Position numbers and translations under genes: made by a program. A stretch of DNA of 64,000 bases from Bacteroidales bacterium (GTDB lineage: Bacteria > Bacteroidota > Bacteroidia > Bacteroidales > JAADJA01). Of this stretch, positions 9,420 to 12,487 are shown piece by piece; position 1 is the first letter of the stretch, and every line of letters starts with the position of its first letter. The stretch is from assembly GCA_020052415.1 (NCBI GenBank), contig JAGVPB010000066.1, positions 1 to 64,000 on the forward strand, given 5' to 3'. The notes beneath the pieces were generated by a model. The model was not told the origin of the DNA. It saw only the letters and a list, made by a program, of their open reading frames with translations, and did no database searches.

Positions 9420-10006
9420 CAGTTAACGGCAGGATGAATTAAGAATACGGTAAAATTCAAATTGTAAATCCCCTCTTGCCTCTGTCTCTGTCTTAGTCGG
9501 ATATTTCCTTGCGGTCTTCAGCCTGTTAAAATGTGAACTTACCTTTATGGTGGGTTCGTAACTTCTGTCACCTTAAAGCCACTGCCTTTTACCTTCAATG
9601 AAATAAGCTAATAAGGTCATCTTCTCCCCGTTTATTCCTGGTTACTAAGGTTGCTTTCAGAAGATAAGGTATTGCATTCTTTGCGTATTCCTTTGCGTAC
9701 TTCGTGTGAAACCTTACCCATCTCCCAAATCCCATCGCCCGGTTCCAAGCCTCCAGCTCCCAACTCCTTGCTCCCCGCTCCACGCTCCAGGCTCTCTGCT
9801 TCTGTTCACATCTGTACGCCCCCTGAACGCCTCCGAACAATGTTAATAAATGTTAAATCCCTCATGTATAATAACCATCTGTTATTCATACTTTTGGCAT
9901 TCGTGGCATAGTATTGGAAAATCTTCGGAATCCCAATGAGCTGCGAAATTTAGAGTTTATGGTTTAGAAAATTTCAATGATTTACTGAGAAAAAAATTAC
10001 CGGATT
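9420..10006. other. Intergenic stretch without genes, with repeat clusters
   Basis: No supported gene was found in this long gap. It contains a degenerate cluster around 9676-9713, in which TTTGCGTA occurs twice, and the heptad cluster at 9751-9804. Short frames that cross it consist of repeat sequence. A possible -7 box (TACTTTTG, 9889-9896) lies about 110 bases before the membrane fusion protein gene, without a clear -33 element. Confidence 0.6.
9751..9804. repeat. Heptanucleotide repeat cluster (CTCCNNG), first of three
   Basis: After a 6-base lead-in (CTCCAG), units CTCCCAA, CTCCTTG, CTCCCCG, CTCCACG and CTCCAGG follow in a strict 7-base period, then decay to CTCTCTG and CTTCTG. The 12-mers GCTCCCAACTCC and CTCCCCGCTCCA recur exactly in the cluster at 11722-11749, and GCTCCACGCTCC recurs as its complement at 11274-11285. 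Confidence 0.75.
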
Positions 10007-11263
10007 ATGGGCATGGATAAAGTAATAGAAAAGAAAAAATGGACTACAAGAAAGTTATTGAATATAGCCGGGATCAGCATCTTCCTGATCTTTATTCTTT
10101 ATCTTCTTTTCTTCAGAGACAAGCGGAGCAAGCTTTATGTGGATAAAACACAGATCACCATAGCTACTGTTTTGGCGGATAAATTCCAGGAATTCATACC
10201 CATAGATGGTGTGGTTCTTCCAAAGAATACAATTTATATTGACGCTGTTCAGGGCGGATTTGTGGAAAAGATTTTCGTGGAAGACGGCGCTCAATTAAAA
10301 AAAGGAGATACCATTCTCAAGCTTTCGAATACAAACATGGAACTGAGCCAGATGGAAACGGAAACCCGTATTTATGAAGCCATCAACAACCTCGAAAATA
10401 CCAAGATCGGACTCGAACAAAATAAATTTATCCGGCAAAGTGAAATTGTCGAACTTCAATATTCCATTGATAAAACCAACCTCGATTTTGAGCGGAAAAA
10501 GCAACTTTTTGCCGAAGGTGTGATCTCGAAAAAGGAATTTGAGGATGCGCAGCGCGAATATGATTTCACAGTAGAGCAAATGAACATTTCGCTCGAACTG
10601 AAAAAACTCGATTCAATTTCAGCGGTAAGCCGCAGCAAAAACATTGATGCGACAATCATCCGGATGCACAACAATCTGGGACTCCTCAAAACAACCATTG
10701 AAAATCTTTACATTAAAGCGCCCATCGAAGGTCAGTTGTCCTCTTTCAGCGCCGAAATCGGCGAAACGAAAGGAGCCGGCGAGCATCTTGGACAAATTGA
10801 CCTGCCGGAAGGATTCAAGTTACAGGCAAACATCGATGAGCGCTATATCTCGAGGGTTTACATCGGGCAGGAAGCGGAGTTTGATTTCGCCGGACAGATG
10901 TACAGTTTAGCCATAAGTAAGATTTATACTGACGTCACGAATGGATCTTTCCAGGTGGATTTATTTTTTGAGCGTGAAGAGCCCGGCCAGATCAAGAGAG
11001 GACAAACACTGCAAATAAGGCTTTCGTTCAGCAGTGCGACGGATGCTATTATTGTAAAGCGGGGTGGATTTTTCCAGGAGACCGGAGGCAACTGGATTTA
11101 CTTTGTGGATCCTTCAGGCGAGTTTGCCACCAAGCGGAAGATAAAGATCGGAAGGCAGAATACGAATTTTTACGAGGTGATGGAAGGCCTGGAACCGGGA
11201 GAGCAGGTGATCATCTCGTCGTATGATTCGTTTGGGGGGAAGGAGAAACTGGTGCTGAAGTAG
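10007..11263 (+). CDS. Membrane fusion (HlyD/MacA-type) periplasmic adaptor
   Basis: The 418-residue protein has one N-terminal membrane anchor (about residues 18-36, rich in I, L and F) and then a periplasmic body. A first lipoyl-like half (VQGGFVEKIFVEDGAQLKKG) is followed by a long helical hairpin (about 110-215, Glu/Lys/Gln-rich), a return lipoyl segment (IKAPIEGQLSS) and a beta-barrel region ending in GEQVIISSYDSFGGKEKL. Such adaptors link an ABC permease-ATPase pair to an outer-membrane channel, as MacA links MacB to TolC. It is the first gene of the export cluster with the ATPase and permeases downstream, but a four-helix-bundle gene sits between it and the ATPase. No outer-membrane channel gene is visible. 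Confidence 0.9.
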   Translation: MGMDKVIEKKKWTTRKLLNIAGISIFLIFILYLLFFRDKRSKLYVDKTQITIATVLADKFQEFIPIDGVVLPKNTIYIDAVQGGFVEKIFVEDGAQLKKGDTILKLSNTNMELSQMETETRIYEAINNLENTKIGLEQNKFIRQSEIVELQYSIDKTNLDFERKKQLFAEGVISKKEFEDAQREYDFTVEQMNISLELKKLDSISAVSRSKNIDATIIRMHNNLGLLKTTIENLYIKAPIEGQLSSFSAEIGETKGAGEHLGQIDLPEGFKLQANIDERYISRVYIGQEAEFDFAGQMYSLAISKIYTDVTNGSFQVDLFFEREEPGQIKRGQTLQIRLSFSSATDAIIVKRGGFFQETGGNWIYFVDPSGEFATKRKIKIGRQNTNFYEVMEGLEPGEQVIISSYDSFGGKEKLVLK

Positions 11264-11305
11264 CAGGGAGCAAGGAGCGTGGAGCTGGGAGCAGGGAGTT
11301 GGGTG
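11264..11305. repeat. Heptanucleotide repeat cluster (CNNGGAG), left flank of the four-helix-bundle gene
   Basis: Six contiguous units begin at the base after the stop codon of the adaptor gene: CAGGGAG, CAAGGAG, CGTGGAG, CTGGGAG, CAGGGAG and TTGGGTG. The unit is the complement of that at 9751-9804 and 11722-11749, so this cluster and the one beyond the next gene are inverted relative to each other. Confidence 0.8.
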
Positions 11306-11356
11306 TGGGATTTGAGCAAGAACATTGGAAAGTAATCATTTTAACACTAAATAATT

Positions 11357-11713
11357 ATGGCACAGTTCCGATTTGAGAATCTTGAAATATGGCAAATGGC
11401 AATTGAGATTGGTGACCGATTATTTGATATTTCAGACAGACACAGAGAGCAAAAAAGATACAGGTTTGCCGAGCAACTGGACGGTGCAGGGTTGAGTATA
11501 TCCAATAATATTTCGGAAGGTTCAGGTTCTACTTCTAACATAGACTTTGCCAGTTTTCTAAATTATACACATCGTTCTATTTATGAATGTGCAAATATTT
11601 TGGTAATCCTTAACAGGAGAAAAATGATAAGTGAAACAGAAAAAGATGAAATATTTAGCAAACTGGAACACCTAAGCAGAAAAGTAACAAAATTCAGGAA
11701 AACACTGATTTGA
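11357..11713 (+). CDS. Four-helix-bundle protein (23S rRNA intervening-sequence / Avd-like family)
   Basis: The 118-residue protein matches the small four-helix-bundle family first named for open frames in 23S rRNA intervening sequences. Visible family features are the N-terminal FRFENLEIWQMAIEI, the central GAGLSISNNISEGSG and the helix FLNYTHRSIYECANIL. Relatives, including Avd of diversity-generating retroelements, form pentameric barrels that bind nucleic acid; most stand-alone members have no known function. The gene is out of place between adaptor and ATPase genes, with a heptad repeat cluster directly downstream and another 52 bases upstream, in opposite orientations. That arrangement suggests it came in as a unit. 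No reverse transcriptase or template repeat is present, so this is not a complete retroelement. Confidence 0.9.
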   Translation: MAQFRFENLEIWQMAIEIGDRLFDISDRHREQKRYRFAEQLDGAGLSISNNISEGSGSTSNIDFASFLNYTHRSIYECANILVILNRRKMISETEKDEIFSKLEHLSRKVTKFRKTLI

Positions 11714-11721
11714 ACACGAAA

Positions 11722-11749
11722 CTCCATGCTCCCAACTCCCCGCTCCATG
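11722..11749. repeat. Heptanucleotide repeat cluster (CTCCNNG), right flank of the four-helix-bundle gene
   Basis: Four contiguous units, CTCCATG, CTCCCAA, CTCCCCG and CTCCATG, begin 9 bases after the stop codon of the four-helix-bundle gene. They share two exact 12-mers with 9751-9804 and are inverted relative to 11264-11305. Confidence 0.8.
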
Positions 11750-11788
11750 CGAATTAAAACAAACATCAAACAATTAAATATTCACATT

Positions 11789-12487
11789 ATGATCCGAACA
11801 GAAAAACTAACAAAAGTCTTCAGGACTGACGAGGTGGAAACTACAGCCCTGAACGAGGTAACCTTCGAAGTAAAACCAGGTGAATTTGTCGCCATCATGG
11901 GACCTTCGGGCTGCGGCAAATCAACCTTGCTTAACATTCTCGGCTTACTGGATAACCCGACAGGAGGAAACTATTTCTTTCTCGAAAATGAGGTATCCGG
12001 TTACACCGAAAAAAACCGGGCAAGATTGCGTAAAGAAAACATCGGCTTTGTGTTCCAGAACTTCAACCTGATTGATGAACTGAACGTATTTGAAAACGTA
12101 GAGCTTCCTTTGATCTATCTCGGCATGAAAACATCCGAAAGGAAAACCAGAGTAGAAGAAGTGCTGGAGTACATGAAGATCAGCCACCGGAAGAAACATT
12201 TTCCGCTTCAGTTATCCGGAGGCCAGCAACAGAGGGTGGCGGTAGCACGTGCGGTGGTTGCAAAACCCAAGCTGATCCTTGCCGATGAACCTACCGGTAA
12301 CCTTGATTCCGCTCATGGTGAAGAGGTGATGAATATGCTCGAGGAACTGAATCAGAATGGAACCACGCTCATCATCGTGACTCATTCCCAGCGCGATGCA
12401 GAATACGCCCAGCGCATCATCCGGCTTTTCGACGGTCAGATCATCAATGAGAACATTAAAGGTAAAGTGAATGCTGTTACGATGTAG
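11789..12487 (+). CDS. ABC transporter ATP-binding protein (LolD/MacB type)
   Basis: The 232-residue ATPase has every motif in order: Walker [10 protein letters not shown] (residues 38-46), Q-loop FVFQNFNL, signature [14 protein letters not shown], Walker [14 protein letters not shown] and H-loop VTHS. It belongs to the group that powers FtsX-fold permeases in mechanotransmission-type transporters. The frame extends upstream to an ATG at 11726, but that extension translates the heptad repeat; ATG 11789 gives the normal family start ([11 protein letters not shown]). It is the only ATPase beside three permeases and probably energises all of them. Confidence 0.95.

Follow-up and report, generated by a model that had tools for sequence, protein, structure and literature searches.

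Heptamer repeats beside an S23 gene have been described in the 23S rRNA intervening sequence (IVS) of Coxiella. As set out in the available part of PMC4990558, this IVS carries GACAGAT heptamers before the S23 open reading frame (ORF), has terminal inverted repeats and is cleaved by RNase III; the same text gives the function of S23 proteins as not known and describes the Xanthomonas S23 protein as a homopentamer. In many bacteria long repeats most often have a 7-base unit (Mrazek 2007, cited in PMC4679880 and PMC4692102), and the two citing papers, in their accessible sections, ascribe this surplus of heptamers among long repeats to polymerase slippage. According to similarly partial texts, GGGAATC repeats of Xanthomonas form 70 inverted pairs in one genome and 75 in another (PMC4692102), TAACTGA repeats stand as 7-base arrays between the genes of Beggiatoaceae, Cyanobacteria and five Bacteroidetes (PMC4679880), and degenerate heptads in P6b of the Nostoc tRNA-Leu (UAA) intron base-pair into a hairpin (PMC3488679). 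Among the open-access papers searched, with the subscription literature mostly outside the search, only the Coxiella paper, in its available part, links S23 to heptad repeats. The terms "s23" and "four helix" do not occur in the accessible text of either PMC4692102 or PMC4679880, and the S23 gene xcc0516 is not named in the text of Rehm 2015.

An S23 gene with heptad arms between fusion protein and ATPase genes

The window, which is the whole stretch of DNA analysed here, comprises 64 kb of contig G000:C19 from a 4.67-Mb draft genome (G000, 97% complete). The original prediction held that a four-helix-bundle gene separates a membrane fusion protein gene from an ABC ATPase gene, and domain searches returned PF13437, PF05635 and PF00005 in that order (Table 1). 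The ATPase gene was read from the ATG at 11789; as listed, its ORF opens at 11726, within the right arm. As predicted, the left cluster of heptads abuts the fusion protein gene, whose stop codon ends at 11263, and opens at the next base. Its units read CAGGGAG, CAAGGAG, CGTGGAG, CTGGGAG, CAGGGAG and TTGGGTG, so five of the six proposed CNNGGAG heptads fit and the sixth is degenerate. The right arm reads CTCCATG, CTCCCAA, CTCCCCG and CTCCATG; all four proposed units contain CTCC, and three have the full CTCCNNG.

Table 1. Features of the S23 locus, with positions in the 64-kb window.
Feature	Position	Strand	Basis
HlyD-like membrane fusion protein gene, upstream neighbour	10007..11263	+	ORF; PF13437
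Left G-rich heptad arm, upstream of S23: five CNNGGAG units and one degenerate unit	11264..11305	+	
S23 (four-helix-bundle) gene, 118 aa	11357..11713	+	PF05635, TIGR02436, AF2 model, fold matches
Right C-rich heptad arm, downstream of S23: four CTCCNNN units, complementary to left arm	11722..11749	+	
ABC ATPase gene, downstream neighbour	11789..12487	+	PF00005, from residue 2 of the 11789 reading
Third array, solo, same motif: CTCC x5 on + strand, no S23 gene	9757..9788	-	

The cassette measures 486 bp from arm to arm. Its arms are inverted as had been claimed, with GGAG on the left and CTCC on the right, and pair with an energy of -55.6 kcal/mol, compared with a mean of -30.5 kcal/mol (SD 3.9, lowest -44.4) for 500 single-base shuffles of the right arm. 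They also pair with each other when the whole cassette is folded. Period-7 arrays of GGAG/CTCC with at least three units numbered three in the window and one in total across 100 first-order Markov versions of it. The solo array lies between divergent genes, ahead of the fusion protein gene, and is one of many genome-wide. PADLOC gave no match.

The S23 protein matches PF05635 over its full length with 84.5 bits (curated cut-off 33.8) and TIGR02436 with 76.6 bits (cut-off 24), and AlphaFold2 confidently predicts a four-helix bundle (mean pLDDT 97). The solved folds closest to this model are 2gsc (Z 18.7) and 2rld (Z 17.4), followed by Avd in the DGR complex 8ub7 (Z 15.2) and Avd alone in 4dwl (Z 14.9; rmsd 1.7 over 105 residues); the best match outside S23 and Avd has a Z of 11.4. 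The suggested relation to Avd is supported by the predicted fold. Avd appeared among the fold matches only and was absent among the PDB sequence-profile matches of the S23 protein. Orthologue pairs of S23 show purifying selection, with a median dN/dS of 0.08 in the 60 pairs with usable dS among 101 pairs at 70-96% identity; for the window gene dS was saturated.

Inverted heptad arms around S23 genes

The genome contains 16 PF05635 matches, of which 12 are above the cut-off. CTCCNNG as the repeat around all family members was rejected: the GGAGCNN pattern is widespread (92 overlapping hits across the genome), yet GGAG/CTCC arrays of at least three units lie within about 700 bp of the window S23 match only, the next nearest being at about 790 bp (L025). 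Most other S23 genes of this genome are flanked by inverted arrays of a different motif, which by eye read TTAGTAT, GTTCAAA/GTTTAAG, GTTTGAA, GGTTACT, GGGAATA and TTAGATT. One gene has hexamer arms (GGCAGT), GGCTTTT stands beside a truncated S23 gene, and around L008, L030 and L031 no arrays were seen by eye. The original observation is confirmed as real, with an underlying rule that is wider than CTCCNNG: inverted heptads show strong enrichment in the flanks of other family members, and most of these genes have a motif of their own. At L025 (G000:C56:21858-22103), matched inverted heptads and an S23 gene stand directly before a gene that reads like SufC, another core operon interrupted as in the window.

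Flank pairing was scored by Smith-Waterman alignment between the upstream flank and the reverse-complemented downstream flank, using mispaired flanks as baseline. Fragments, duplicates and short flanks were dropped, which kept 79 of 83 distinct genes or fragments in the genus set and 197 of about 226 in the pooled set. Among the 197 distinct S23 genes, 112 pair better than 95% of mispaired flanks (p <= 0.05; 10 expected), and 69 beat all 60 mispaired partners. The individual sets, which overlap and are not independent, gave own against mispaired scores of 18.8 and 11.1 for the genus (79 S23 genes or fragments), 16.9 and 10.7 for a phylum sample (30 loci, taken as top matches), 20.0 and 12.8 for named GTDB loci (n = 78; direct-repeat control 12.1), and 18.6 and 12.5 for family f86 (29 loci). 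Loci above the 99% mispaired level numbered 35/79, 6/30, 13/78 and 5/29, respectively. The named loci derive from the best 80 of at least 558 relatives of one S23 protein and include Pedobacter, Sphingobacterium, Chryseobacterium, Algoriphagus, Hymenobacter and others. As a control, 39 other genes of the window scored 11.5, with none above the 99% level of 19. At the 78 named loci, 91% of the upstream flanks and 81% of the downstream ones had their best lag at 7, and mean periodicity over lags 5-12 peaked at 7 in the genus, phylum, named and f86 sets. By eye, arms with a unit length near 8, 10 or 11 were present at L085, L111 and L107, and pairing arms were absent from L008, L030 and the L031 group. 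The inverted-heptad layout around S23 genes is general, though not universal. The arms are gene-specific, the left matching the right, with the G-rich side upstream: among periodic arms, GC skew was positive in 74 of the 90 upstream and negative in 70 of the 80 downstream ones.

Orthologous sites were defined as those sharing both neighbour gene families. Within site groups of 35, 15 and 11 loci, own arms matched better than crossed arms (0 of 5000 permutations each), as they did in a group of 8 (32 of 5000), kinship being ignored in these permutations. In seven small groups of 3-6 loci, one of them the L031 group, the excess of own over crossed arms was not significant, and four of these were reversed. 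S23 recurs at the same gaps across many Bacteroidota genera (L135, L150, L168 and others; the L087, L172 group), and these recurrent sites, of 35 and 15 loci, lie in operons that read as fatty-acid oxidation.

Motif and protein were compared for the 93 of 197 genes with a periodic arm. For pairs of loci that have no neighbour family in common, similarity of motif correlated with S23 identity (Spearman 0.324; 0 of 500 permutations), rising from 0.023 at 20-30% identity to 0.123 above 60% (44 pairs). AG phase was found in 57 of 77 periodic arms of the L140-like subfamily and 20 of 50 elsewhere. The link between protein and repeat is strong as a correlation, and its mechanism is inferred; shared descent of gene and arms, rather than recognition, may also account for it. 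A longer S23 subfamily (L031, L126, L127, L129 and L130; 155-166 aa) is conserved upstream of one gene family, which we take to be DUF1015-like. This group lacks pairing arms, its member L129 having an upstream array only, and the subfamily looks domesticated.

A plasmid search with a second S23 protein gave 24 records, and 16 loci were read: 14 from cyanobacteria (Nostoc, Calothrix, Anabaena, Geminocystis, Pseudanabaena and others), together with Azospirillum and Riemerella, the latter itself a member of the Bacteroidota. The window S23 protein gave no match in plasmids, and a Bacteroidota S23 protein none in phages. At the 16 loci own pairing was 21.6 against 11.6 for mispaired flanks, with 7 above the 99% level of 25, and the lag-7 periodicity peak was 20.6. 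Arms of Nostoc C052 read GGGAACA/TGTTCCC, and no clear pairing (10-12) was found in Calothrix 7716, Aulosira, Nostoc HK-01 and T. variabilis. On an N. edaphicum plasmid (L335) the genes for the beta and alpha subunits of ribonucleotide reductase enclose an S23 gene on the other strand; its upstream arm holds about seven units of GGGAGTR and its downstream arm five of TCCCTAC. In Pseudanabaena (L333), long AAAGCTA/AAAGCCA arrays flank S23 apparently as direct repeats, an exception to the inversion. In three cyanobacterial plasmids (L333, L337, L340) S23 lies within CRISPR operons, at positions between cas6 and cas4 or between cas10 and a Cmr3-family gene.

Occupied and empty sites, and arrays without a gene

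The fusion protein was matched in 80 of 80 genomes, its own included, most of the matches being distant; 30 of its loci were examined and the gap was displayed for 25. The fusion protein-ATPase site is present in 14 congeners (own included), within which the neighbouring protein is 75-81% identical. S23 with GGAG-type arms occupies the site in G000, G008 and G010. The S23-like ORF of G005 is decayed and lacks heptads, as read from the sequence, and G003 has a hairpin of GGAGC and GCTCC units with no S23 gene. The search for empty sites in orthologous operons that had been proposed was successful: the nine other congeners have no PF05635 match at the site, and two of them carry AGAT-type heptads instead. 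In other families the gaps seen were mostly short, and at L063 an inverted array of another heptad stands with no gene. Insertion of S23 into a pre-existing array is disfavoured, because the gene and the GGAG array are both missing at several sites, in several congeners as well as in other families.

G003 is the sister of G000 in the fusion-protein tree (support 0.85), in which node supports within the genus range from 0.37 to 1.0. With branching partly uncertain, its arms are best read as the result of gene loss, since S23 is also present in G008 and G010 and decayed in G005. The arms can outlast the S23 gene. Among the 197 genes the top pair without a shared neighbour family has 82% protein identity; within this set neither near-identical S23 copies at two sites nor a recent copy was seen, which gives no direct sign of movement. 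Where the nearest S23 relative is at least 70% identical, it has a neighbour gene family in common in 86 of 96 cases, so that much of the spread of S23 has been vertical. The reading as an inserted cassette with repeat ends agrees with the empty sites in relatives and with the inverted heptads enriched around other family members; taken as a whole, the interpretation offered by the original prediction is partly supported.

Arrays also occur without an S23 gene. In 464 kb of this genome, 28 intergenic and one coding lag-7 arrays were found, against one, seven and nine intergenic arrays at lags 6, 8 and 9; these arrays share their tandem 7-base units in intergenic DNA with short tandemly repeated heptanucleotides. 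Many solo arrays are single-armed by eye. At L012, L017, L022 and L028 several heptad families stand side by side in intergenic mosaics, the one at L017 being a tandemly repeated composite. Six S23-free genomes had no lag-7 arrays in 315,516 bases and seven S23-rich genomes had 14 in 400,000 bases (five of the seven with any), in a small sample confounded with GC and taxonomy. A survey of 198 Bacteroidota genomes, 157 of which have S23, looked for TTAGNNN or GGTTNNN patterns of four units; these cover two motif families, coding and intergenic DNA were pooled, and reversed controls were not blank. Arrays were present in 6/41 genomes with no S23 copy, 6/28 with one, 9/29 with 2-3, 26/46 with 4-6, 21/29 with 7-10 and 21/25 with at least 11. 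The reversed TTAG control was found in 6/41 S23-free and 15/25 of the S23-richest (at least 11 copies) genomes by hand count; it therefore behaves as another heptad rather than as a blank, and was taken as another heptad family. The link persisted within families (0 of 20000 permutations; 167 genomes, 18 families), with f97 reversed. Heptad arrays elsewhere in the genome track S23 copy number.

Explanations and known systems

The cassette is probably a compact genetic element, made of one S23 gene and matched inverted arms of about 7-base units, which sits in gaps of protein-coding operons. Placement directly behind a stop codon would be tolerated there because reading frames stay unbroken. 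The Avd-like bundle may recognise its own heptad in nucleic acid and could promote the copying, spread or upkeep of arrays, perhaps through a hairpin formed by the transcript or by single-stranded DNA; on this view solo arrays would be its footprints, or derivatives that lack the gene. Both movement of the element and binding of heptads by S23 are presumed in this account, and a two-armed element offers no simple account of the solo arrays that appear single-armed by eye.

A wider proposal, which we put forward tentatively and hold to be possible without favouring it, is that S23 proteins are trans-acting factors that create, spread or maintain bacterial heptads, each with its cognate heptad and propagating itself, with gene-less arrays as products. 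If true, one cause would underlie the excess of 7-base repeats, covering cyanobacterial heptads, the Xanthomonas GGGAATC pairs, the tRNA-Leu intron hairpin and the rRNA IVS. S23 is widespread in the phylum and has no recorded function according to the available part of PMC4990558, and the heptad excess has been put down to slippage in those of PMC4679880 and PMC4692102; with gene-specific pairing of S23 and heptad across the phylum, both S23 function and the heptad excess become testable. Each S23 gene supplies its own predicted binding site, and rRNA intervening sequences become tied to a far larger set of elements in protein operons.

Alternatively, the cassette might act as an IVS at the RNA level, its arms pairing in mRNA, RNase III cutting the stem and the S23 segment being removed as in 23S rRNA, with spread by rare recombination and the protein secondary. 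The arms do pair in RNA (mean -48.1 kcal/mol for own against -36.0 for mispaired flanks at 197 loci), those of the window strongly and within the whole-cassette fold, and the available part of PMC4990558 reports RNase III cleavage for Coxiella. Sense pairing is slightly stronger (119/197, p 0.001), yet mismatches within paired arms comprise 162 G.U and 154 A.C; selection on the RNA strand through wobble pairs was rejected on this ground, and without a wobble bias nothing indicates that pairing is maintained on the sense strand of the RNA. With wobble unfavoured there, the concerted change of the arms may stem from copying between arms at the DNA level together with RNA selection. S23 is moreover conserved (dN/dS 0.08), whereas the Coxiella ORF is decaying according to the same partial source, and we regard an RNA-level IVS as unlikely.

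Somewhat less likely still is a regulatory module in which S23 binds arrays in transcripts or DNA and controls its own operon as well as genes with solo arrays, the repeats spreading by slippage or recombination. By eye, the heptads of solo arrays resemble those of S23 arms in the genus, the motif correlates with the S23 protein, and S23 genes are placed co-directionally in operons (150 of 185 with both neighbours; 12 of the 197 could not be judged). Against this, the intergenic mosaics of heptad families resemble accumulated insertions more than operator sites, and S23 is missing from the same operon in 9 of the 14 congeners with the site.

Mobilisation in trans by an encoded enzyme, such as a reverse transcriptase or a transposase of the Y1/REP type that S23 helps or merely accompanies, would draw on the abundance of Y1 in the phylum (145/198 genomes; 7 matches in this genome) and on the likeness of the predicted S23 fold to Avd, a reverse transcriptase partner. 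No RVT_1 (PF00078) match was found, however, in the draft G000 with its 16 S23 matches, and 38 of 68 genomes with at least four S23 copies and arrays have no reverse transcriptase match. Arrays are likewise present in 7 of 12 genomes with at least four S23 copies and no Y1. In a joint logistic model the likelihood-ratio chi2 was 30.4 for S23, 0.9 for Y1 transposase and 1.0 for reverse transcriptase, and neither enzyme was retained as a driver of the arrays; this explanation is quite improbable. That heptads arise by polymerase slippage in intergenic DNA where S23 merely happens to lie would suit the general abundance of heptamers (Mrazek 2007) but is hardly credible in view of the matched inverted arms, their polarity, the motif-protein correlation and the within-family link to copy number.

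We return to the compact element with its heptad arms, for which the S23-bearing 23S rRNA IVS is read as the nearest known element and the present one as its intergenic relative. As far as the available part of PMC4990558 goes, the Coxiella IVS resembles it in having one S23 ORF, complementary inverted ends that can fold into a stem, tandem heptamers directly ahead of the ORF and a similar size (428 nt, against 486 bp for the window cassette). The window element differs in lying between protein genes, outside 23S rRNA, in that heptads make up both arms with a gene-specific motif, and in that its S23 is conserved in orthologues whereas that of the Coxiella IVS is decaying. Seven 23S rRNA motifs, searched as exact matches, occurred in none of the S23 loci collected. 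The inverted repeats at both cassette ends, and presence or absence at the same site among relatives, are features of transposons and MITEs.

Avd of DGRs shares the predicted four-helix-bundle fold of S23 (4dwl); unlike a DGR, the S23 element has inverted heptad arms and lies in a genome without a reverse transcriptase match. The REPIN/Y1 (RAYT) system consists of short inverted repeats in many intergenic copies; the S23 element differs in having no Y1 gene, and Y1 number is no predictor of arrays beside S23. The accessible text on P6b (PMC3488679) places its hairpin within the tRNA-Leu intron with no S23 gene named, and it would match an arms-only form. The TAACTGA repeats, as far as PMC4679880 is available, are unlike S23 arms in being direct in all but one set. 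The heptanucleotide repeats of Nostoc and Xanthomonas, as described in the part of PMC4692102 at hand, are like S23 arms in being 7-base, intergenic and G-rich, and the S23 loci on cyanobacterial plasmids carry arms of this very type.
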